Positions 1-17,891 of a stretch of 46,966 nt of DNA are shown here, in pieces. Position 1 is the first letter of the stretch, and each line of letters opens with the position of its first letter. The notes below the pieces were generated by a model. It was not told the origin of the DNA, did no database searches, and worked only from the letters and a program-made list of their open reading frames with translations. Origin of the DNA: Desulfobacteraceae bacterium CG2_30_51_40. GTDB taxonomy: Bacteria > Desulfobacterota > DSM-4660 > Desulfatiglandales > Desulfatiglandaceae. A program made the position numbers and the translations under genes. Location of the stretch: positions 1-46,966 of the forward strand of contig MNYJ01000197.1 in the NCBI GenBank assembly GCA_001874005.1, given 5' to 3'.

Positions 1-105
1 CAGCGATTGTTCGAAAGGCCGCCTCCGGCGGCCTGTAGGACAGGCGCTGGAGCGAAGCTCAGCTCGCCCATTCGCGGCGCGCCGGAGGCGTGCCGCGAAC
101 AGGGT
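1..105. repeat. GC-rich multi-hairpin element that cuts the TonB receptor gene
   Basis: This stretch is much richer in GC than the receptor gene it joins and is made almost entirely of short perfect inverted repeats. GGCCGCC/GGCGGCC lies at 17-33, CCTGT/ACAGG at 32-44 and GAGC/GCTC at 50-60. A long hairpin at 71-99 has TTCGCGGC/GCCGCGAA outer arms and an inner CGCC/GGCG stem. The receptor reading frame (minus strand) keeps family-like sequence up to GIAYHP and then runs into this element, gaining an unrelated tail and a stop at 59-61. It is probably an interspersed palindromic repeat or short mobile element. An assembly-edge artefact is possible because it sits at the window end. Confidence 0.5.
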
Positions 106-988
106 GATAGGCTATGCCTACCTTGGGAGAGAAGCTTTCCTCGTGCTGGGTATCATATTGGTTCTTGTAGGCGGGGACTCCTCCCTCAGGCTTGGTGTCC
201 CAGATTGCGCCGTCGGAAGTCGAAATAAAGTCATAACGTGCTCCGGCAGTCAGGATAAGGCTGTCATCAAATAACCTGAAATCCGCGTTCAGGAATGGAG
301 AGATGAACTGCTGAACCCCCTCTGCCCCCGCGTCCCTGGTGGTTCCCGGGAAATCTTCGTCATAGTCCCAGTTTGCCTCCTTGAAGGCGGCTCCCAGCGT
401 CAGGTTCGCACCTTTCCAAAGCGCATAGTTTCCCTGCAAATCGACTCCCCATGTATATGCCTTGGGGTGCTCATCACGATAGGGAGCTGTGTAGTTGTTG
501 TTTGCGTTATCCTGATAGGCGGTCTTGTCGGCCCGATTCAGATAGACAAGCCCTTTGAGCCCCAGCTTTTCCCCCTTGCGGGAATAATTGAGCCAGTACT
601 GGTCGAGTGTAAGGTCGGTGTGGAAAAACTCCCTTCCCTGTCCGCCGTCCAGATCATAGTAAAGGCCTGAAAGGGTTATGTCGGAGTTTTCAGCTATATC
701 ATAGGAGACCTTCCCCAGGGCCTTCCCCGCCCTACGGTATTTCTTGGTAGTGTAGCTCTGCACATCCTCTCTCATGTAAAATCCGTCGCTATCGTCGTAA
801 CCCCCGGCGGCCATCAAACCGAAACCATCAAACTTCTGGCTGTGAAAAAGGGCGCCGCCGTAAGTATTGGCAGTCCCGGCCTCACCCCTTATTGAGGTCT
901 TCCGGGTCTTGGAAGCCTTTTTGGTGATGATATGTATGACGCCTCCAAGACCCTCTGAACCGTAGAGTGCTGATGTGGGCCCCCTCAC
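59..988 (-). pseudogene. TonB-dependent receptor, C-terminal part (plug end and partial beta-barrel), truncated
   Basis: This frame continues the receptor begun at 1417, in the same phase, after an in-frame TAG at 1001-1003. It opens with the plug motif VRGPTSALYGSEGLGGVI, the hallmark of TonB-dependent outer-membrane receptors, followed by about 290 residues with alternating aromatic/polar strands typical of the barrel (for example SDITLSGLYYD, LNADFRLFDDSLILTAGARYD, SFSPKVGIAY). A full receptor is usually 600-750 residues; the two parts here total about 450, so the last part of the barrel is missing. The final residues come from the hairpin element at 1-105. A GTG at 986-988 could in principle restart translation, but I see no Shine-Dalgarno and the product would lack a signal peptide and plug start. 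It is probably non-functional; the substrate is unknown, though nickel or a metal chelate is a reasonable guess from the CooT neighbour. Confidence 0.75.
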
Positions 989-1000
989 TATTTCGATCCT

Positions 1001-1417
1001 CTATATGGTCTCCTTTGGTATGTGGCCCCAGGCGATCCATGCGATGGCGTTGTTGAAGTTGTCGTTCTGGGGAACCCCGTCCAAAAGGAGAAGTACCCTG
1101 TTTTTCCCGACCCCCCTCATTATGAGCGGGCTCACGATACCGTTTGTCTGCATGCCGTAATGCCTGAAATTGTATATGCCCGCCACGCTTCGCACTATGT
1201 CCTCTATCCTTTCAAAGGGAGAGGATGCGATTTCCTCACTTGTTATTACAGTCACCGCCTGGGGGGCGTCAAATACCGACATCTCGCTCCTGGTAGCCGA
1301 AACTACCACTGAATCAAGGCGATGCACCTCCTCCTTCTTATCCTCGCCCGACACCAAGGCCGGAAATGCGAGCAAGATGGCCATCAAAAAAGACCCGATA
1401 CATTTTACTACTCTCAT
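1001..1417 (-). pseudogene. TonB-dependent receptor, N-terminal part (signal peptide and plug), ends at in-frame TAG
   Basis: The 138-residue product starts with a Sec signal peptide (about residues 1-24, hydrophobic stretch after MRVVK). A TonB-box-like segment (LDSVVVSATRSE, about 34-45) follows, then the plug domain (VTVITSEEI, VRSVAGI, RVLLLLDGVPQND). A good AGGAGGAG ribosome-binding site lies just upstream of the ATG. The frame stops at TAG (1001-1003) between IPKETI and RIEIVRGP. Family members have Glu or another residue at this point (IPxxxIERIEVVRGP), so a single GAG-to-TAG change explains the break. TAG also ends ordinary genes here (exbB, coaX, rpoH), so recoding is not indicated. 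A receptor like this would sit in the outer membrane and import a metal chelate or other ligand powered by ExbB-ExbD-TonB; the shortened product alone cannot form a pore. Confidence 0.8.
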
Positions 1418-1688: not shown

Positions 1689-1877
1689 CTATTGCTCGAA
1701 CAGGATCTTGTGGTTGACGAGATTCATGGACTTGATCCTTCCATTGACGATCTTCTGATCGCCGAATATGCCCATGATCCTCCAGCCGTTTTCGCCTTCA
1801 GGCTCAATCAGATCAACCGACTCCATGATCAGTTCTTCCTGACCGTCCTTTACCAGATAGGCATTCGCTTCACACAC
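1689..1877 (-). CDS. CooT family nickel-binding protein
   Basis: This small protein of 62 residues begins MCEANAYLV. The Cys directly after the initiator Met is the conserved feature of the CooT family, whose founding member binds Ni(II) through that Cys and takes part in nickel delivery for CO dehydrogenase maturation in Rhodospirillum rubrum. The rest, with short beta-type segments such as MESVDLIEPEG and IVNGRIKSMNLVNHKILFE, fits the family's small all-beta fold in size and pattern. Its ATG overlaps the last eight bases of the DUF3842 gene, so the two are probably translationally coupled. No CO dehydrogenase or hydrogenase gene is in this window, so the enzyme served is unknown. A TonB receptor and ExbBD-TonB lie next door, which may mean metal import; that link is inference. 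Confidence 0.8.
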   Translation of the reverse strand: MCEANAYLVKDGQEELIMESVDLIEPEGENGWRIMGIFGDQKIVNGRIKSMNLVNHKILFEQ

Positions 1878-2295
1878 CTTTAATCACCTCCTTTATCTTT
1901 CCTTCAATCATTGCCTGGACCAGGTGGGGAAGGGGCTCCTTCATCACCCCAACTATCTCGCATCGCTCCTGCGATAGAGGAATGAGGAACTTAACCGCCA
2001 TACTGGTCATAACAGACTCGGCCATTCTCGCTGTTACCTCTCCCATCATTGAATTGGGCCACGTGATGGCAATTGGCCCAACGACAAGGTCGCACTCATT
2101 GGACATTCGGCAGATGGCGTTTTCGCCCGAAGCCCCCCTGTTTGCCCCGGCCTTTAACATCTGGGACGTTGCAATCGCGTTTGTGCCCAGGGCGATCAGC
2201 TCCACTCTCTCACCAAAGCTCTCCTTAAGATACTTAATGATGGTTGCGCCTATGCCCCCGCCCTGGCCGTCTATCACACAAATCTTCTTGATCAA
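1870..2295 (-). CDS. DUF3842 family protein
   Basis: The 141-residue protein opens with KKICVIDGQGGGIGATIIKYL, a beta-strand followed by a glycine-rich loop (about residues 5-16) as in nucleotide-binding Rossmann-like folds. It continues with alternating strands and helices (ERVELIALGTNAIATSQML, CDLVVGPIAI, RCEIVGV), matching what I know of DUF3842. No catalytic function is established for the family. The start is TTG at 2293-2295, chosen because GAGGT lies at good distance upstream and the strand KKICVID follows at once. Its stop overlaps the start of the CooT gene, a pairing I recall as recurrent in anaerobes, so a role in metal handling or in maturation of a nickel enzyme is a fair guess, not shown by the sequence. 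Confidence 0.75.
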   Translation of the reverse strand: MIKKICVIDGQGGGIGATIIKYLKESFGERVELIALGTNAIATSQMLKAGANRGASGENAICRMSNECDLVVGPIAITWPNSMMGEVTARMAESVMTSMAVKFLIPLSQERCEIVGVMKEPLPHLVQAMIEGKIKEVIKGV

Positions 2296-2535: not shown

Positions 2536-3249
2536 TCACATGAGTTCAAAGACAATACTTATCTCCACACGCACAGGACCGTTAAAAAGCTTTGCCGTAG
2601 GTCTTGGAAATGGTGATGCCGCCTTTACGGCCTCAAGGGCCGCATCATCAAGCAACCGATAGCGGCTGGGCTGCCTCACCTCCAGGCCGCTTATTGTGCC
2701 GTCGGAGGCTATGGTGAATCTCACTGCAACCCGCCCCTGCATCTGCTGTTTCATTGCCGCTGCAGGATATTTCTTCCGGCTTTCGATCTTCATCCTCACC
2801 ATGCTGAAATAATCTTCGCGGGCGCCGTATGGAAGAGGACCTGAAGGAGCGGCCGAAGAAGGCGGCACCCAGTTCATTGCATCAAGCCTGGCAGCATCCG
2901 GTTTCTCGGGCACGTCTATCGGCTCAACAATGCTCTTTGAGGCTTTGGCAGGCACCTGCTGACGCGGCGGCTGAACAGCCTTCATTGGGACAGGAATTAC
3001 ATCTCTCACCTGGGGCGTCTCCGCATCAGGAGGCCTTCGCCTCTCAGGAGGCCTTGGAATGTTTCTGACTGCCGGGTTCTTTTTTTCCTCAAGGCTGAGT
3101 TCTATATAAGTCAGGGCTTTCGAATTATAGAGGCCCGCGATATGCCCCAGAATCCAGGCGTGGAAGGTAATGGAGCCAACAAGAAATCCCGCAAGTATCC
3201 AGTTTGGCCTTCTTCTCTTCCCCTCCACCCCTGACCAGCCTTTCGTCAT
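2536..3249 (-). CDS. tonB: Energy transducer TonB
   Basis: The 237-residue protein has the classic TonB layout. A short basic cytoplasmic tail is followed by one membrane anchor (about residues 17-38, WILAGFLVGSITFHAWILG), then a proline/charge-rich periplasmic linker (about 55-120, PRPPERRRPP and similar). A C-terminal TonB domain follows (about 145-237: GRVAVRFTIASDGTISGLEV, LLDDAALEAVKAASPFPRP). It spans the periplasm and passes proton-motive energy from ExbB-ExbD to an outer-membrane receptor. Its ATG overlaps the exbD stop (ATGA, 3246-3249), so it is translationally coupled and last in the exbB-exbD-tonB unit. The anchor keeps a Ser-His pair (SITFH), as in TonB anchors. The partner is probably a TonB-dependent receptor such as the damaged one at 59-1417. 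Confidence 0.9.
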   Translation of the reverse strand: MTKGWSGVEGKRRRPNWILAGFLVGSITFHAWILGHIAGLYNSKALTYIELSLEEKKNPAVRNIPRPPERRRPPDAETPQVRDVIPVPMKAVQPPRQQVPAKASKSIVEPIDVPEKPDAARLDAMNWVPPSSAAPSGPLPYGAREDYFSMVRMKIESRKKYPAAAMKQQMQGRVAVRFTIASDGTISGLEVRQPSRYRLLDDAALEAVKAASPFPRPTAKLFNGPVRVEISIVFELM

Positions 3250-3653
3250 AGACCCTTCTCTGTCGCCAAAACAAGCCTCCCGGCGCCTGCGGCCTTGGCC
3301 ACATCCATCACCTGCACCGCCTTGTTGAGAATGACGGAGCGGTCGGCCCTTATGACCACAAGTCTGTCGCCGGAATCTCTTATCATCTCCTTTAGCCGCT
3401 TGAAGAGCTGATCGAGAGCGACCTCTCTGTTTTCGATAAACGATCTACCCTGCGCATCAACATACACGGTTATCTCCTGATCTGTCTGGGGCCTTGCGGC
3501 CTGGGCCTGAGGGAGCTTAATATCTATCCCCTCATCCACCATGAAATTGGTTGTAAGAAGAAAATAGACAAGCAGGAGAAAGACTATGTCTATTAGGGAG
3601 GCCAGGGGAAACTGTACCCCGTATCTGGGTCTTCTGGTTCTGTGGACAAGCAT
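3246..3653 (-). CDS. exbD: Biopolymer transporter ExbD
   Basis: The 135-residue inner-membrane protein has an N-terminal cytoplasmic tail, one transmembrane helix (about 15-38) and a periplasmic domain, the normal ExbD/TolR form and length. Asp22 in SLIDIVFLLLVYFLL is the conserved membrane-embedded Asp of the proton channel. The periplasmic part (EITVYVDAQGRSFIENREV, DRLVVIRADRSV, VMDVAKAAGAGRLVLATE) matches the family. It works with ExbB to convert proton flow into movement of TonB. It starts three bases after exbB ends and overlaps tonB by four bases, so the three form one operon. TolR is the alternative, but the adjacent TonB favours ExbD. Confidence 0.9.
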   Translation of the reverse strand: MLVHRTRRPRYGVQFPLASLIDIVFLLLVYFLLTTNFMVDEGIDIKLPQAQAARPQTDQEITVYVDAQGRSFIENREVALDQLFKRLKEMIRDSGDRLVVIRADRSVILNKAVQVMDVAKAAGAGRLVLATEKGL

Positions 3654-3656
3654 TTC

Positions 3657-4271
3657 CTATTTTCCTCTGTATTTTCCAAGGCTCTTTATGAATCGCACTG
3701 TGCCATCCTGCAGCCTTGCCTCATACCGGTCCACCCGGTGAGTGAGCCAACTGTGCGCGACCATCGTGGGAAGGGCGACCGCAAGCCCCAGGGCCGTTGT
3801 GAGCATTGCCTCCCAGATTCCTCCTGCAAGTACCGCAGCATTGACCTTTCCTCCCATCTGCTGGATGACCATGAATGCCTTTATCATGCCGGTTACGGTA
3901 CCGAGGAGCCCCAGAAGAGGCGCAATATTGGCAATGGTAGCAAGGGCCTGGAGGTATCTTGACAGCTCTGTTACCTCCTCCTCGGTTGCGTGGGCAAGCA
4001 CCGTCTCCAGTATCTCCCTGTCCTGATCCATAACATCGAGGCCCTGTGCCAAAATCCTCCCCATGGGCGAACGGCTGTTCATCGCGGCCTCCTTAGCTCC
4101 CTTTTCATCTCCCTTTTCAATGAAATCGGAGACCCTTCCCGCAACGAGTCTTCCCCTTCTTCCGAGGACCGCAAAGCGTATGGCCCTTTCCGCAAATATT
4201 GTAAGAGCAAAAACGGAGCAAAGAAGGATCGGGATTACGAGCACCCCGCCCTTGCTTAAAAAATCTATCAT
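3657..4271 (-). CDS. exbB: MotA/TolQ/ExbB proton channel family protein ExbB
   Basis: The 204-residue product has an N-terminal transmembrane helix (about 5-26), a cytoplasmic helical loop and two further membrane helices. These carry the ExbB/TolQ signature ANIAPLLGLLGTVTGMIKAF and GIWEAMLTTALGLAVALPTMV. It forms the proton-conducting pentamer around ExbD. I start it at ATG 4271 (MIDFLSKGG) because AAGGAGG lies five bases upstream at 4277-4283. The frame extends to 4310, but that would place this perfect ribosome-binding site inside the gene. It ends three bases before exbD. It follows the calcium-loop protein gene by 125 bases, with no clear terminator between them, so all four may share a transcript. 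Confidence 0.9.
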   Translation of the reverse strand: MIDFLSKGGVLVIPILLCSVFALTIFAERAIRFAVLGRRGRLVAGRVSDFIEKGDEKGAKEAAMNSRSPMGRILAQGLDVMDQDREILETVLAHATEEEVTELSRYLQALATIANIAPLLGLLGTVTGMIKAFMVIQQMGGKVNAAVLAGGIWEAMLTTALGLAVALPTMVAHSWLTHRVDRYEARLQDGTVRFIKSLGKYRGK

Positions 4272-4396: not shown

Positions 4397-6163
4397 TCAC
4401 ATTTTCTTTTCTATGTCTGCCTTTCCGTCGAAATCCAGATCCTCCATCCTCGATGTCATGGCCTCGGATTCGTCATAGTGCTCCCACAGATCAGGTCTGC
4501 CGTCCTGGTTCCGATCCTCCTCCACCATTGAAAGGCGTCCCTTTTCATAATAGAACCAGGTATCCGTCCGGCCGTCCCCGTCGGAGTCCTTCTCACCAAG
4601 AAAGGCCCTCTCTTCCGCGTCGTAGTGCCAGGTGAGATCGTATCCGGCCTTGCCATCCGAAGATTCCCTTGAAATCACGAGCCTTCCCTTGCCGTTATAT
4701 TCCTCGATGGAGACCCATCTATCGCGGACTCCGGAGAAGACCTCCTTGACCCTCATGGCATCCTTAATATAGCGATATCGCTCATCAAACTTTCCATCGC
4801 CGTCTGTGTCAACCTCGGTCACCATTGTCCAACCCGGTTCATTCAAGATCTGCCTGGTTTCGAAATGACCGTCCCCGTCCCTGTCCAGGAGAACTCTTAT
4901 CATCCGGCCCTTGTCATATTCCATGACGGAATCTATCCTTCCGTCGTGGTTTCTGTCCTGCTCCGCCTTTACCATGTCACCGGACTTGTAGTGCTGCCAT
5001 GTGTCCATACGGCCGTCGCGGTTTGAGTCCGTCTCAGCCAGCAGGATAATCCCGGCCTTGTCAAATGTGATGCGCTGTTCGATCCTGCCGTCGTCGTCCT
5101 GGTCAACAGTCTGGAGTACGGGTTTTTCCTTCTCGAAGGTTGTAACCGTCTTTTTCCCGTCCTCAACCTGTTCAAGACTTGTCATTATCCCTTTCATGAA
5201 ACGGCTGATCCTGTTTTTCTCTCTGATAAGGGCGGGCCTGCCGTCTTCGTCGAAATCCGTGAAGCGGTCGGGCTTGCCGTCATGATCAGTGTCCTCTTTC
5301 TTATGTACCGGCCTTCCCTTTACAAGCTTAAGCTCCGTATCAAATGATCCGTCCAGGTTCGTATCCATCATCTCCTTTACAGGCAGGGAGTCCCTGTATT
5401 CGATCACATGAAATGGTGTCTCGCTCCCATTCCGCCTCTTTTCCTGCCTGGATATCTCGCCCTTCTCATAAAGGCGAAGGGTTTCCATGAAGCCGTCCTT
5501 GTCCGTGTCGTTCAATGTCCTTGCAACAGCTCCCTCCTGATCGTAATAAACCACCTGTTCCAAACGGCCGTCTCCGTCCCTGTCGGCCTTCTGTTCGACG
5601 GGTTTTTCATCCTTGAATTTCTGCCAAAAATTTGCCTTCCCGCCGCCTGTGGTATCCTTTGTAACAAGGGTCAAGGCCCCGTTTTCGTAATGATGGATTG
5701 TATCAAACCTGCCGTCTCCTGTGGTATCCCTCTCCCATCTCAATGGCCTCTCCTGCTCATCAAAGCGGATGGCCCCGACTGGTCGGCCCAGGGTGTCCAG
5801 CTTTTCATGGAGCGTGCGCTTTCCCTTCTCTAGGATATCCTTTTCATCAACATTGCCGTCTGCATCGGAGTCCTTTTCAACTCGCATGAGCACACCCTTC
5901 TCGTAATACTGGAACGTGTCCATCCGGCCGTCCCCATCCCTGTCAGCTTCAAGCTTAACTAAGTTTCCGGTTGGGTCCAGATGAGCGATCCTGTCAATCC
6001 TTCCATCCTTATCAGTATCCTCTTTTATGACTTTCACACCCTGTGCCGCGGCATTAAAAGGGCCAATACTGTGAAACGCGAGCCCCAGCATAAAGATCAG
6101 AGAGTTCAGAAACACAGGGTTAAGGATCATTTTCCACTTAGACATATTATTAACCTCATTCAC
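4397..6163 (-). CDS. Exported protein with many DxDxDGxx[DE] calcium-type loop repeats
   Basis: The 588-residue protein has an N-terminal signal peptide (hydrophobic ILNPVFLNSLIFMLGLAFHSI, ending near AAAQG). The whole remainder is built of units of about 22-25 residues, in which an acidic loop of the form D-x-D/N-x-D-G-x-x-D/E alternates with a short beta pair ending in Y-x-x-G (for example DRDGDGRMDTFQYYEKG). I count about 16 well-formed loops and several degenerate ones. Such loops bind Ca2+ in EF-hand-like, dockerin and thrombospondin type 3 repeats, so a calcium-stiffened extracytoplasmic rod is likely; binding itself is not shown. There is no catalytic motif. The start is ATG 6163, or ATG 6145 (MSKWKM), which has GAGG eight bases upstream. 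It lies upstream of exbB-exbD-tonB on the same strand and may be co-transcribed. Confidence 0.75.
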   Translation of the reverse strand: MNEVNNMSKWKMILNPVFLNSLIFMLGLAFHSIGPFNAAAQGVKVIKEDTDKDGRIDRIAHLDPTGNLVKLEADRDGDGRMDTFQYYEKGVLMRVEKDSDADGNVDEKDILEKGKRTLHEKLDTLGRPVGAIRFDEQERPLRWERDTTGDGRFDTIHHYENGALTLVTKDTTGGGKANFWQKFKDEKPVEQKADRDGDGRLEQVVYYDQEGAVARTLNDTDKDGFMETLRLYEKGEISRQEKRRNGSETPFHVIEYRDSLPVKEMMDTNLDGSFDTELKLVKGRPVHKKEDTDHDGKPDRFTDFDEDGRPALIREKNRISRFMKGIMTSLEQVEDGKKTVTTFEKEKPVLQTVDQDDDGRIEQRITFDKAGIILLAETDSNRDGRMDTWQHYKSGDMVKAEQDRNHDGRIDSVMEYDKGRMIRVLLDRDGDGHFETRQILNEPGWTMVTEVDTDGDGKFDERYRYIKDAMRVKEVFSGVRDRWVSIEEYNGKGRLVISRESSDGKAGYDLTWHYDAEERAFLGEKDSDGDGRTDTWFYYEKGRLSMVEEDRNQDGRPDLWEHYDESEAMTSRMEDLDFDGKADIEKKM

Positions 6164-6543
6164 GCCTGCCCCCGGGCCGGTTCAAGCCGGAAAAACGCAT
6201 AAGCTCGCCTCTCCAAAAAAATAGGCCAGGGAAGCGACTATTCACAACGCTAACCCCGGCCTTCATGACCTTGTTATAACACCTTAATTAATACTTCTTT
6301 GACACCTTCTTGGCATCATTTTAATTATGAATGATAATTCACAAAAGTCCCGGATGTCAACAAAAAAGCTCCGCCCGCTTCAAGTCTTATCGCATGATTC
6401 CATAGAGTTAAACTATAGTATAGGGCAAAACCAATTGCACTCTTTTCCCCATGCCTGGTTGACTTGCAATCCAGATTGAGGTAACTACCGCATCTGATGA
6501 AACATGCTTATGCCTGAATTCTTTTTGGAGGAGGTCATTTCTT
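6164..6543. other. Divergent intergenic region with Fur-like palindrome
   Basis: This 380-base AT-rich gap lies between two divergent exported-protein genes. It contains the palindrome at 6323-6339, a TATAGT box at 6414-6419 that may be a -10 element for the plus-strand gene, and GGAGGAGG at 6527-6534, the ribosome-binding site for ATG 6544. I see no small gene or RNA in it. Confidence 0.5.
6323..6339. promoter_or_regulatory. Fur-like operator candidate
   Basis: AATTATGAATGATAATT is a perfect inverted repeat (AATTAT/ATAATT, 5-base spacer) and contains the GATAAT hexamer that builds the Fur consensus. It lies about 160 bases upstream of the calcium-loop/exbB-exbD-tonB unit. Iron control of a TonB system would be ordinary. 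The match is partial, and AT-rich palindromes arise by chance. Confidence 0.35.
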
Positions 6544-12623: not shown

Positions 12624-15600
12624 ATGCAGAAATCGGAAATCGGCAATAAGATAACAGATAAGGTGATTTCCATAAGGGGGGCGCGCGAGCACAACCTCAA
12701 GGGGATTGACCTCGACATTCCCCTCAATAATCTTACCGTCATTACGGGCGTAAGCGGGGCAGGGAAATCATCTCTTGCCTTCGACACCCTGTACGCGGAA
12801 GGCCAGCGAAGGTACGTGGAGACATTTTCTCCATACGCGCGCCAGTTTCTTGACCGCATGGAAAGGCCGAAGGCCGACTGCATAAAGGGGATTCCGCCCG
12901 GTATTGCCATTGACCGCAAGGACCCGGTGCGCACCTCGAGATCAACTGTTGGCACCATGACGGAGATAACTGACTATGCAAAGCTTCTATTTGCAAAGGC
13001 GGGAAGGCTCCATTGTGAAAAGTGCGGAAGACCCGTCATACAGGAAGGCCCGGCGGACGCTTGGAAGGTCTTGGCAGAACCAGGTGCCCCGCAGGGAGGT
13101 GAAATCATCATAACCTTCCCATCCGAGGGAAAGGATGAGTCGGTCAAGGCCCTCCTGCAGGCCGGATTCAGCCGAAGTTTTACAGGCTGGAGACTTGAAG
13201 ACCTTGATAAGGCCGAAGGAGCTACGATCCATGTGGTCATGGACAGACTTCCCGGGGGTCCGCGCGACCGAAAGAGGATATTCGACTCCCTTGAGCAGGC
13301 ATTTGTGGCAGGCAAGGGAAAGGTGGATATCTGGATCAGGCCTGATTTTCACCGTTCCTTCAGCGCGAGGCTTGAGTGCCCTGAGTGCGGAATATCCTAC
13401 GACAAACCCTCCGCCAATCTCTTTTCATTCAATAGCCCCATAGGCGCCTGCCCCCAATGCCGCGGTTTCGGAAGGATAATAGAGATAGACATGGACCTTG
13501 TGATCCCGGACAGGCGGCTTTCTCTCGAAGAGGGCGCTATAAAGCCCTGGGGCGCAAAGAGGGAAGGCAGGATGGAATACAAGGACCTGGAAGAATTCTG
13601 TCTGAAAGAAGGCATAGACATGTCCTTGCCTTACATGAGCCTTCCTGCAGTTCAAAGGCGGGCCTTGGAAGACGGGACTTCATCCTATTACGGTATCAAG
13701 GGTTTTTTCGACTGGCTTGAGACAAAGACCTACAAGATGCATGTGAGGGTCTATCTTTCAAGGTACAGGTCATACGGGATCTGCCCCATGTGCGCGGGGA
13801 GCCGTTTCAAGAAGGATGCTCTTCTTTACCTGATAGGCGGTACAAACATAGCCCAGTTCTACCAGATGGACGTTTTAAGGGCACGCAGGTTTGCGGAAGG
13901 CCTTGGATACGCGGATGAGGCTATCATCCTGATACTTCAGGAGATTAAAAGCAGACTTAGCTTTCTGGACGAGGTGGGCCTCGGCTATCTTACCCTTGAC
14001 CGCCAGTCAAGGACGCTTTCCGGAGGGGAGGTCGCAAGGGTGGCCATGGCATCCGCCCTGGGGTCCTCCATAGTTGACAGCCTCTACGTGCTTGACGAGC
14101 CGAGCATCGGACTTCACCCGAGAGACATCAGCCGCCTTATGAACATTATAAAAGGAATAAGGGATCTTCCCAACACGGTGGTTGTGGTGGAACACGATCC
14201 ATCGGTCATAGTCGCGGCCGACCACGTGGTGGAGCTTGGACCCGCAGCCGGTGCATCAGGCGGAAGTGTCATTTATGAAGGGCATCCTTCAGGGATAAAG
14301 GATTCCTTGACCGGAAGGTATATCAGGGGAGCGACCGGTATCCAGGTGCCCGCCCGGAGAAAGGCGCCTGAGGAATTCCTTGTGATAAGGGGCGCCTCCG
14401 CCCATAACCTCAAAAATATTGATGTGGAGATACCGCTTGGACTTTTTGTGTGCGTCACAGGGGTTTCAGGCTCAGGAAAATCCACCCTGACGGAGGGAAT
14501 TCTCTTCAGGGCCTTAAAGCGTATTAGGGGAGATCAGCAGGAAAAACCAGGCCCCCACAGGTCAATTGAAGGCGCGGAACTAGTGGAGGATGTAGTAATG
14601 GTGGACCAGAGGCCCATCGGAAGGACCCCCAGGGCCAATCTTCTCACTTACACGGGCGCCATGCCCTATATTAGAAGGCTATTGGCCGAAACACCCGCGG
14701 CCGTTAAGCTGGGTTTGACCGCCTCTGAGTTTTCCTTTAACAGCGGTGAGGGAAGGTGCCCGGTATGCAAAGGCCAGGGCTATCAGAGGCTTGAGATGCA
14801 GTTTCTCTCGGATGTGGACCTGCCCTGTCCCGAGTGCGGCGGGAGGCGCTTCAAGCCCTTTGTCCTGGATGTGAGGCTTAAGGGAAAAAACATCCACGAG
14901 ATACTCTCAATGACTGCTGAGGAGGCATGCGAATTCTTTTCCGGCTCAAAGGCCATCCTGAGAGCGCTAGAACCTGTAAGATCAGTGGGACTGGGGTACA
15001 TGGAACTGGGCCAGCCGCTGAATACGCTTTCGGGAGGGGAGGCCCAGAGACTTAAACTTTCAAGGCACATGGAGGAAAGGAAAAAAGGAGGGGTTCTCTT
15101 CATATTCGATGAGCCCACTACAGGTCTTCACCTTGCAGACACAGACCTTCTCCTCAAGGCCCTTTTTGCCCTGAGAGACAGGGGCAACACCATAATTGTG
15201 GTGGAACATAACATGGAGGTGGTCAAGACAGCCGACTGGGTGATTGACCTGGGACCTGAAGGAGGCGATGCAGGGGGAGAGCTTGTAGCCTTCGGAATGC
15301 CGGAGCGTGTCGCCTTGAGCAAAGGCTCGGTAACGGCCTCTTTTCTAAAGAAGGCTCTGGAGCAAGGCGGATGGAAGGCTGAAGATGCAGGCTCGGAATC
15401 ATGGAAGGTAAGTGAAAAGGAACAGGCTGCATGGCAGTCCCGGGAGGCGATCGTCATAAGAGGGGCAAGAGAGCATAATCTCAAGGACCTTACTCTGTTC
15501 ATACCGCGAAGGGAACTGGTTGTGATAACGGGTGTTTCAGGCTCGGGGAAATCCACCCTTGCCTTTGATGTGCTCTTTGCCGAGGGCCAGAGAAGATATC

Positions 15601-17891
15601 TTGAGACCCTTGCGCCTTACGTGCGGCAATACATGAGAATCCTTCAGAGGCCTGATGTGGACGCGGTTACAGGCATTCCTCCAACGGTAGCCATAGAGCA
15701 GAGGATCAGCCATGCAAGCAGGCGCTCTACCGTCGCGACCCTGACCGAGATATATCATTTCCTCAGGCTTCTTTTCAGCAAGCTGGCAGTTCCAAACTGT
15801 CTGCAGTGCGGAAGAAGCCTCGAGGCAGGGAGCAAGGATGAAATTGCTGGAATAATAGTTGAAAGACACACGGGATCAGACGCCTTGCTTCTTGCCCCCA
15901 AGATATACGGAAGAAAGGGCTTTCACAAAAAGCTCCTCGCCGAGGGCCTGAAAAAAGGCATAACCCGAGCGCGCATTGATGGAGTTCTAACACCCATCGT
16001 CAAAGATATGTCCCTTGAAAGATACGCCGAACACACAATCGAGTTTTTGATAGGAAGACTCAGCGCGGGTGAGGGGCCCGATATCGCGAAAAGGGCTATC
16101 GAGGAGGGAGACGGCACCGTGATAGTCTCAGAGGAAGGCAGGACTGATAGGACCTACAGCCTGACCGGGATATGCCCTGAATGCGGAATAGGAGCGCCTG
16201 AGCCTGATCCGAGGCTATTTTCCTTCAACTCTTCGAAGGGGTCGTGCCGGAAGTGCGGAGGAACCGGGCTAGCCGGGGAAGACAGCACGGCTATATGCCC
16301 TGAATGCGGCGGCAGCAGACTCAGGAAGGAGTCACTCGCTTTCAGGATCGCCGGCCTGACCATCTGGGACTTCGTGAGCCTTTCAGCAGGCGATCTTCTT
16401 GCAGCAATAAGCGGGCTTTCATTTGATTCGGTCTTTCAAAGGATCGCAGAACCGCTCATTTCTGAGATAACGGAAAGACTGCGTCTCATGGGGAGGCTCG
16501 GTCTTTCTTACCTGGAGCTTAACCGGAGCGGAGACACCCTTTCAGGGGGAGAGGCACAGAGGGTGAGGCTTTCCGCTCAGTTGGGCTCCAATCTGACCGG
16601 GGTCTGCTATGTGCTTGATGAACCCACCATAGGGCTTCACCCCCGTGACTCAGGTGCCATGATTGCAGCCTTACGGGAGCTGAGAGACAGGGGAAACTCC
16701 GTGGTGGTGGTAGAGCACGACGAGGAGACGATCAGAAGTGCGGATCGTATCATTGATATTGGCCCTGGCGCGGGAGATGAAGGCGGCAGGCTTGTGGCCG
16801 AAGGCACGCCGAAAATGATCGAGCGGAGCGGCCACTCCATAACCGGAAGATACCTGCAGCCAGGCAAGGGAAGGCTCGGATCAAGGCTCAGGCCATACGG
16901 GGAACGGGAAAAACTTTCGATCCAAGGGGCCTTCCTCCATAATCTCAAGGAGATTGACGTTGATTTCCCCCTGGGCTGCCTTATATGTGTAACCGGAGTT
17001 TCAGGCTCAGGAAAAAGCACACTCCTGAGGGAGGTGGTTTTCGAATCTGTAAAGACCATGCTTTCCGGACGCTCCGGCGGCCCTTCAGGCTGCAGGGCCG
17101 TTAGTGGATGGCAGAACATCAGGCGCATCCTAGAGGTGGACCACAGCCCCATCGGCCGCACGACCCGCTCGGTGCCGGCATCATACGTGGGTTTTCTTCA
17201 GCGCATAAGAGAGCTTTTCTCTCTGGTGCCCGAGGCGAGGGCGCGCGGTTACAGGCCTGGAAGGTTTTCATTCAATGTCGCGGGCGGAAGATGCGAGGCA
17301 TGCAAGGGGCACGGAAGCATCAAGGTCTCCATGGGTTTTCTCCCTGATGTGTATGTCAGGTGCGAGACATGCGAGGGAAAAAGATTCAACACTGAAACCC
17401 TTGAAATAAAATACAAGGGAAAGGCAATATCCGAGGTGATGGAGATGACCTTTGATGAGTGCGTAAGGTTCTTTGCGGCTCATACGGAGATCAGGAGGGC
17501 GGCTTCCCTTGTCTCTTCCATAGGTCTTGGTTATCTGAGACTGGGGCAGCCTAGCCCAACACTCTCGGGAGGCGAGGCCCAGAGGATAAAGCTTGCCGAG
17601 GAGCTATCCAAAAGGACTGACGGCCGCACCTTCTACGTCCTTGATGAGCCCACCACCGGTCTTCACATGGCTGACACGGAACGTCTGATTGAGGTCCTAC
17701 AGGCCCTTGTGGATGCCGGAAACACTGTCGCTGTGATAGAGCATAATCTCGGAATCATAGGGGCCTCCGATTACATAATTGATCTGGGGCCAGAGGGAGG
17801 GCATGGCGGCGGGAAAGTGGTAGCGGCAGGCTCCCCGAGTGAGGTTGCCGCAACAGGGCAGATGTCACATACCGCGAGATACCTTTCCTGA
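12624..17891 (+). CDS. uvrA: Double-length (tandem) excinuclease ABC subunit UvrA
   Basis: The 1755-residue protein contains two complete UvrA copies in one chain; normal UvrA is about 940 residues. There are four Walker A motifs (GVSGAGKS at 42, GVSGSGKS at 613, 970 and 1458). The four LSGGE signatures lie near 465, 802, 1306 and 1647, and there are four Walker B motifs ([32 protein letters not shown]). Each copy begins [10 protein letters not shown] and has its own zinc modules (CPECG...CPQC in copy 1, CPECG...CRKC in copy 2, and C-terminal CxxC-CxxC fingers in both). A charged linker (about 910-940) joins them. UvrA recognises DNA damage with UvrB in nucleotide excision repair and works as a dimer, so the fusion could be a covalent dimer. 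Chlamydial UvrA has the same double form. Copy 1 diverges after its first signature ([12 protein letters not shown], not AQRIRLA), hinting at specialisation. The ribosome-binding site is weak (TTAGGAAT). Confidence 0.93.

Follow-up and report, generated by a model that had tools for sequence, protein, structure and literature searches.

A gene encoding an exported protein built of calcium-type loop repeats heads a distinct ExbB-ExbD-TonB lineage in part of the Desulfobacterota, and it is the usual first gene in one nutrient-import motor of many sulfate reducers and their relatives. The gene is described here from a stretch of 46,966 nucleotides (contig MNYJ01000197.1 of Desulfobacteraceae bacterium CG2_30_51_40), referred to below as the window. 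TonB systems as such are known, and a canonical TonB-ExbB-ExbD system shares the same three domains above the Pfam cut-offs and adjoins a TonB-dependent receptor. In contrast, the system of the window has as its first gene one for a conserved exported protein predicted to form a calcium-loop ribbon. What is new is this conserved ribbon at the head of one ExbB lineage, which is not described in the searchable papers; full-text literature searches returned no description of the repeat gene or of its link to exbB. We know of no such exported calcium-loop component in the described TonB systems.

Organization of the operon

The repeat gene is located at positions 4397..6163 on the minus strand and comprises 588 codons when read from a GTG. 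Since the ATG at 6145 (codon 7) is preceded by GAGG six bases upstream, it is probably the better start. The gene is followed on the same strand by exbB of the linked clade described below (3657..4271; ATG at 4271 with a good ribosome-binding site; PF01618, 115.5 bits), exbD (3246..3653; PF02472, 102.1 bits) and tonB (2536..3249; PF03544, 65.8 bits), the last of which overlaps exbD by 4 bases. All three domains scored above the Pfam cut-offs, and a TonB-ExbB-ExbD energising set is thus present. This confirmed the gene order that had been proposed in an earlier, sequence-only reading of the window. The stop codon of the repeat gene is separated from the exbB start by 125 bases. Consensus matching on the minus strand detected neither a promoter-like nor a terminator-like site between 4397 and 4271, where signals of its own would have set exbB apart from the repeat gene. 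The best promoter-like site, TTGACA-18-TATCAT, agrees with the consensus at 11 of 12 positions and precedes the repeat gene (6331..6360, minus strand); the scan, which is limited to this kind of evidence, relied on consensus matches only and found 6 sites, versus a mean of 3.3 in shuffles of the region.

Directly downstream of tonB is a DUF3842 gene (1870..2295, minus strand), a homologue of which is found near an operon remnant in genome G047. A CooT-family gene of 62 codons for amino acids (1689..1877, minus strand; PF10133, 88.4 bits at a cut-off of 27) is situated between tonB and a TonB-dependent receptor fragment (59..1417, minus strand) that runs into the contig end. This fragment contains an in-frame TAG at 1001-1003, in what we take to be the place of the Glu codon usual in the receptor plug motif I-x-RIEIVRGP. 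Elsewhere in the window, the plus strand encodes a 1755-residue protein (12624-17891) with two UvrA-type domain sets, apparently a tandem UvrA.

Export signal and calcium-type loops

The repeat protein begins with a putative signal peptide (MSKWKM...NAAAQ; 6041..6145, minus strand), which by its sequence and the family pattern is of the Sec/SPase I type without a lipobox. Inspection of the window's protein revealed no lipobox cysteine after this signal peptide, and no surface anchor was seen. Of the 75 relatives examined, 71 have a hydrophobic Sec-type signal segment ahead of the repeats, and lipobox-like motifs occur in two of the 75, in one case inside a hydrophobic stretch; a surface lipoprotein was rejected on this count. 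With a Sec signal, almost never a lipobox and no anchor in sight, we place the repeat protein in the periplasm, as its probable location, rather than on the surface, where the sequence-only reading had tentatively put it. Most copies are roughly 480-600 residues long, some have fewer than 400, and the number of repeats varies. Among the closest 20 sequences, length and register are nearly fixed (588 residues, 603 alignment columns). The C-terminal end (4400..4630, minus strand) is richest in near-invariant residues, W512, D526, W536, N552 and W560 among them.

The repeat protein contains 15 instances of the pattern D-x-[DN]-x-D-G-x-x-[DE], compared with a shuffle mean of 0.03, and 16, compared with 0.05, when S or T is allowed at position 3 (5000 shuffles, with a maximum of 2). 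The earlier count of about 16 DxDxDGxx[DE] loops within 4397-6163 was therefore right, as were their coordinates. The loops are spaced by 24-25 residues or multiples thereof, with the exception of a DFDEDG at residue 303, which falls on the turn side of the predicted ribbon; one further loop of the window's protein, DTTGGGKAN at residue 170, is degenerate. Across the family, positions 1, 3, 5 and 9 are 90-100% conserved in most of the 17 loops. Conservation is clearly broken at position 3 of loop 5, position 9 of loop 6 and positions 3 and 9 of loop 16, and it goes down to 84-88% at a few further ligand positions. The loops are predicted calcium sites. The YxxG beta pairs that had been reported to alternate with the loops fared differently: the bare motif is not above shuffles (8 occurrences versus 3.5 expected, with a shuffle maximum of 11) and was rejected as a motif, whereas an alternation of hairpins and loops is indeed predicted by AlphaFold.

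Predicted fold and related families

The AlphaFold model, calculated with 69 sequences, reached a pLDDT of 90.8 and a pTM of 0.70. The signal region alone was poorly predicted, with low pLDDT at residues 1-41. In the model the chain is a single beta meander of 46 strands, forming 23 hairpin units (4415..6019, minus strand). Along one edge of the meander the strands are joined through short turns, two to seven residues in length, while the opposite edge carries mostly longer loops, 17 of the 23 being nine-residue loops of the DxDxDGxx[DE] type. The C-terminal 233 residues folded alone gave a pLDDT of 94.8 and a pTM of 0.83. We read the model as an open single-layer ribbon with an estimated contour of roughly 22 nm, at 4.8 A per strand. 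Structure prediction thus yielded a regular ribbon with calcium-type loops, in agreement with the rod that had been anticipated from the sequence.

In Foldseek searches the best E-values (1e-14) were obtained for Rhs and teneurin repeat shells. These YD-repeat shells share hairpin repeats of similar size with the repeat protein. However, their rows gave TM-scores of 0.10-0.17 against the full model, below 0.3, and an rmsd above 40 A, which suggests that the overall shape differs, and no RHS family was among the Pfam matches. VIA-align, applied to a chosen list of fold families, scored OspA and the N-terminal sheet of TarM/SdgB/GtfA at a Z of about 10-11 across 100-270 residues, and the MORN protein SET7/9 at about 7; the OspA-like comparison, on predicted models, had an rmsd of about 4-15 A. 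By these scores all of them resemble the repeat protein in local beta-meander geometry, but they are much shorter, show a large rmsd across long stretches, and none is described with calcium loops on one edge. The sole PDB sequence matches were EF-hand proteins such as lanmodulin (E 4e-4). The DxDxDG loop chemistry is common to both, whereas the loops of the repeat protein have nine residues and join strands in the model, and EF-hand loops lie between two helices; an EF-hand or lanmodulin relative was rejected, the matches being at the loop level only.

Two sequence families touch the repeat protein. Pfam DUF6802 (PF20615) scored 38.8 bits, exceeding its cut-off of 27. Its profile has 102 positions, is without an assigned function and spans just a few repeats of the protein, and the family is named in no paper found by full-text literature search. 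The Lsa25.6 family adhesin profile (NCBIfam NF050087) scored 67.7 bits in four stretches and did not reach its curated cut-off of 150; the repeats are related, but the profile covers 196 positions versus the 588 residues here. The Lsa25.6 family is described in PMC7662565 as binding host components. By these profile scores the repeat protein family appears related to the Lsa25.6 adhesins, yet outside that family. A viral origin was rejected, as six peptide patterns of the repeat protein had no match in viral contigs, and so was a plasmid-borne reading, for which one cyanobacterial match only was found (62% coverage, 22% identity).

The repeat gene is linked to one ExbB lineage

A scan of species genomes gave 128 relatives, of which the best 80 were taken as loci; the carriers include the culturable Desulfosarcina widdelii and Desulfocicer vacuolatum. 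Four of these end less than 700 bases downstream of the repeat gene, which left 76 evaluable loci. In 71 of them the repeat gene is followed by a co-directional exbB, accompanied by exbD in 68 and by a downstream tonB in 62 of these 71 loci. Locus L059, an apparent miss, carries an exbB of the linked type four genes downstream, while L097, L107, L108 and L109 are without exbB nearby. The alignment A2 built from the 80 loci omitted eight with stops in the matched range as well as the four loci L107-L110, of which L110 encodes a short homologue, and it includes L059 and L097, both without an adjoining exbB; alignment A3 comprises 49 of 62 trimmed rows.

An independent sample of the phylum contained the repeat gene in 32 of 395 genomes (E 1e-20), and exbB lay within 1 kb of 31 of the 39 repeat copies, in 25 of the 32 carrier genomes. 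The adjacency that the sequence-only reading had proposed for a neighbourhood search was thus conserved in both data sets. Several diverged or short copies do not adjoin exbB, namely those of G178, G353, G252, G258 and G410; the copies of G178 and G353 are short weak matches. In one miss (G039) the contig ended, and for three copies the distance to exbB was 2.7-3.7 kb. Two degraded loci were observed. In G047 (L166, 303-1103) an operon remnant fuses the repeat N-terminus in frame to the ExbD C-terminus, and in G004 (C1, 1505557-1508762) the repeat gene, apparently broken in two, precedes an intact exbB of the linked type.

The ExbB proteins themselves are divided along the same line. In 61 relative genomes, 23 ExbB copies are 61-100% identical to that of the window and 22 of these adjoin the repeat gene, whereas the remaining ExbB matches reach at most 43% identity. 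The single exception, G040, has a linked-type ExbB with no repeat frame in the approximately 1 kb available upstream, and a search of the G040 genome did not find the repeat gene anywhere; it may therefore be dispensable. An ExbB tree with 72 linked and 28 unlinked sequences requires two label changes, versus 24.6 in shuffles. This was a quick maximum-likelihood tree for which the program warned of joined long branches, and the one unlinked row within the linked part, L144, sits on a long branch. The tree was built without 12 of the 40 unlinked regions, two having no match and ten having domains of fewer than 100 residues. Together, the adjacency and the split in ExbB identity define a dedicated ExbB-ExbD-TonB lineage whose first gene is usually the repeat gene.

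Candidate cargo and selenocysteine receptors

The flanks of the related loci contain genes for CbiM, CbiQ and DUF4198 proteins, a P-loop protein with a CbiA match whose CooC-like name is our own reading, and NikL-family subunits (175 bits in L061, versus a cut-off of 100, and 70 bits in L096, below it). CooT, to whose family a gene of the window belongs, is known as a nickel-binding CO-dehydrogenase accessory. NikL, CbiM, CbiQ, CooC-like or CooT genes were found near 20 of 72 linked and none of 20 unlinked ExbB genes (Fisher p 0.005, relatedness ignored), and with DUF4198 added the counts were 28 of 72 and 0 of 20 (Fisher p 0.0003, relatedness again ignored). TonB-dependent receptors were likewise more frequent near linked (41/72) than unlinked (3/20) ExbB loci, while the FecCD permease, which is iron/haem-like, showed no difference (9/72 versus 3/20). 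The comparison was made without eight of the 80 loci, four truncated and four without exbB in reach; the flanks of the 20 unlinked loci are longer on average, and this set mixes TolQ- and MotA-like proteins. The available flanks of 52 of the 72 linked loci hold no NikL, CbiM, CbiQ, CooC or CooT marker. Since the markers are enriched, nickel or cobalt is favoured as the cargo, and the neighbouring genes suggest that the linked motor may import one of the two. A tetrapyrrole-methylase-like protein with an apparent signal peptide is encoded in L034 (6036-6965), and similar genes are present in nine other loci; the signal peptide is odd, since the enzyme would need cytoplasmic SAM.

At 12 loci a receptor gene near the cassette contains an in-frame TGA, as in L034 (3843-6032), L038 (9386-11503), L049 (4331-6532) and L071 (3940-6027). 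Seven such receptors were scanned and reached the cut-offs of NCBIfam PCPU, PUIUD, CU and FCYXU, that is, of all four types. A selenoprotein TonB-dependent receptor of this kind has already been published (PMC12013277, PMC13188914); neither article contains the terms exbB or EF-hand, and PMC12013277 contains neither calcium nor nickel. In the phylum sample, the repeat gene was present in 7 of 17 genomes whose match contained an in-frame TGA, versus 25 of the 378 others (Fisher p 0.00013). As it is missing from 10 of the 17, the selenocysteine receptors and the cassette are associated, yet separable, and these receptors were rejected as its sole partner.

Discussion

Of what we infer from these data, a functional partnership of the repeat protein with the linked TonB motor is the strongest, given its co-inheritance with one ExbB clade. 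Our tentative preference is for a periplasmic accessory, stiffened by calcium, that serves a TonB system for nickel or cobalt complexes, a reading that builds on the repeats, their conserved ligand positions, the export signal, the co-inheritance with an ExbB clade and the enrichment of nickel and cobalt genes nearby. The repeat protein would then be a dedicated fourth component of the ExbB-ExbD-TonB lineage. Exported by Sec and freed of its signal peptide, it would, lacking an anchor, most likely act in the periplasm. About 17 loops along the ribbon edge, each predicted to hold Ca2+, would stiffen the ribbon, and the TonB motor could use it as an accessory or scaffold. The conserved end at the C-terminus may dock on the TonB side or on the receptor, and the ribbon could keep the receptor, TonB and the incoming ligand in register; this ligand would most probably be a complex of nickel or cobalt. 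A periplasmic scaffold would fit a ribbon that is rigid, anchorless, predicted to be calcium-loaded and equipped with a conserved end. Repeat length and TonB periplasmic length were uncorrelated (Spearman rho 0.004, n 55), and a periplasm-spanning ruler matched to TonB was rejected for this reason.

Conceivably, the acidic ribbon acts instead as a periplasmic buffer that takes the ligand or metal from the receptor and passes it to an inner-membrane transporter. The many acidic loops (77 Asp among 548 residues of the repeat protein) would suit this role, and ABC or ECF inner-membrane partners at other loci could receive the ligand. Such a buffer seems doubtful, however, as the loops follow the DxDxDGxx[DE] calcium pattern without the His or Cys ligands expected for nickel or cobalt, and periplasmic binding proteins (PF01497) are already encoded in some loci. 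The repeat protein could also be an operon neighbour with an envelope task of its own, for instance in calcium-dependent stability or signalling, that is co-transcribed with the TonB genes and does not act with TonB. In its favour, G040 has its linked-type ExbB without the repeat gene; nevertheless, the gene is inherited together with one single ExbB clade in many genera and is adjacent in 22 of 23 cases, which exceeds what is usual for unrelated operon mates and makes this explanation unlikely.

We consider it distinctly unlikely that the protein is a surface-exposed or secreted rod for ligand capture outside the cell, along the lines of the sequence-only reading, or an adhesin. The resemblance of its repeats to Lsa25.6, a family of Leptospira surface adhesins (67.7 bits), and its OspA-like single-layer sheet geometry would agree with such a rod, but the family cut-off of 150 was not reached, the relatives carry a signal peptide only, with a lipobox-like motif in 2 of 75, and the near-fixed length and register of the closest 20 sequences are unlike typical adhesin repeats. 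Finally, a cassette serving chiefly selenocysteine-containing receptors, and not nickel or cobalt receptors generally, appears very improbable: all four NCBIfam types adjoin it above their cut-offs at some loci and the repeat gene is overrepresented in genomes with a TGA-containing match (7/17 versus 25/378; Fisher p 0.00013), but it is absent from 10 of these 17 genomes, and an in-frame TGA is missing in most of the receptors that lie near the cassette.

Returning to the calcium-stiffened accessory, it is possible, and we hold the view loosely, that the cassette represents an undescribed class of TonB motor of which the ribbon is a working part, and through which sulfate reducers and their relatives would take up nickel or cobalt complexes, using selenocysteine receptors in some lineages. 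How TonB force crosses the periplasm to the receptors is a long-standing question, and a dedicated exported, apparently rigid partner of one ExbB lineage provides a concrete test protein for periplasmic scaffolds of TonB. Hydrogenase, CO dehydrogenase and B12 enzymes have nickel or cobalt as cofactor metals, and the repeat-gene cassette points to a candidate outer-membrane route for the uptake of one or the other.
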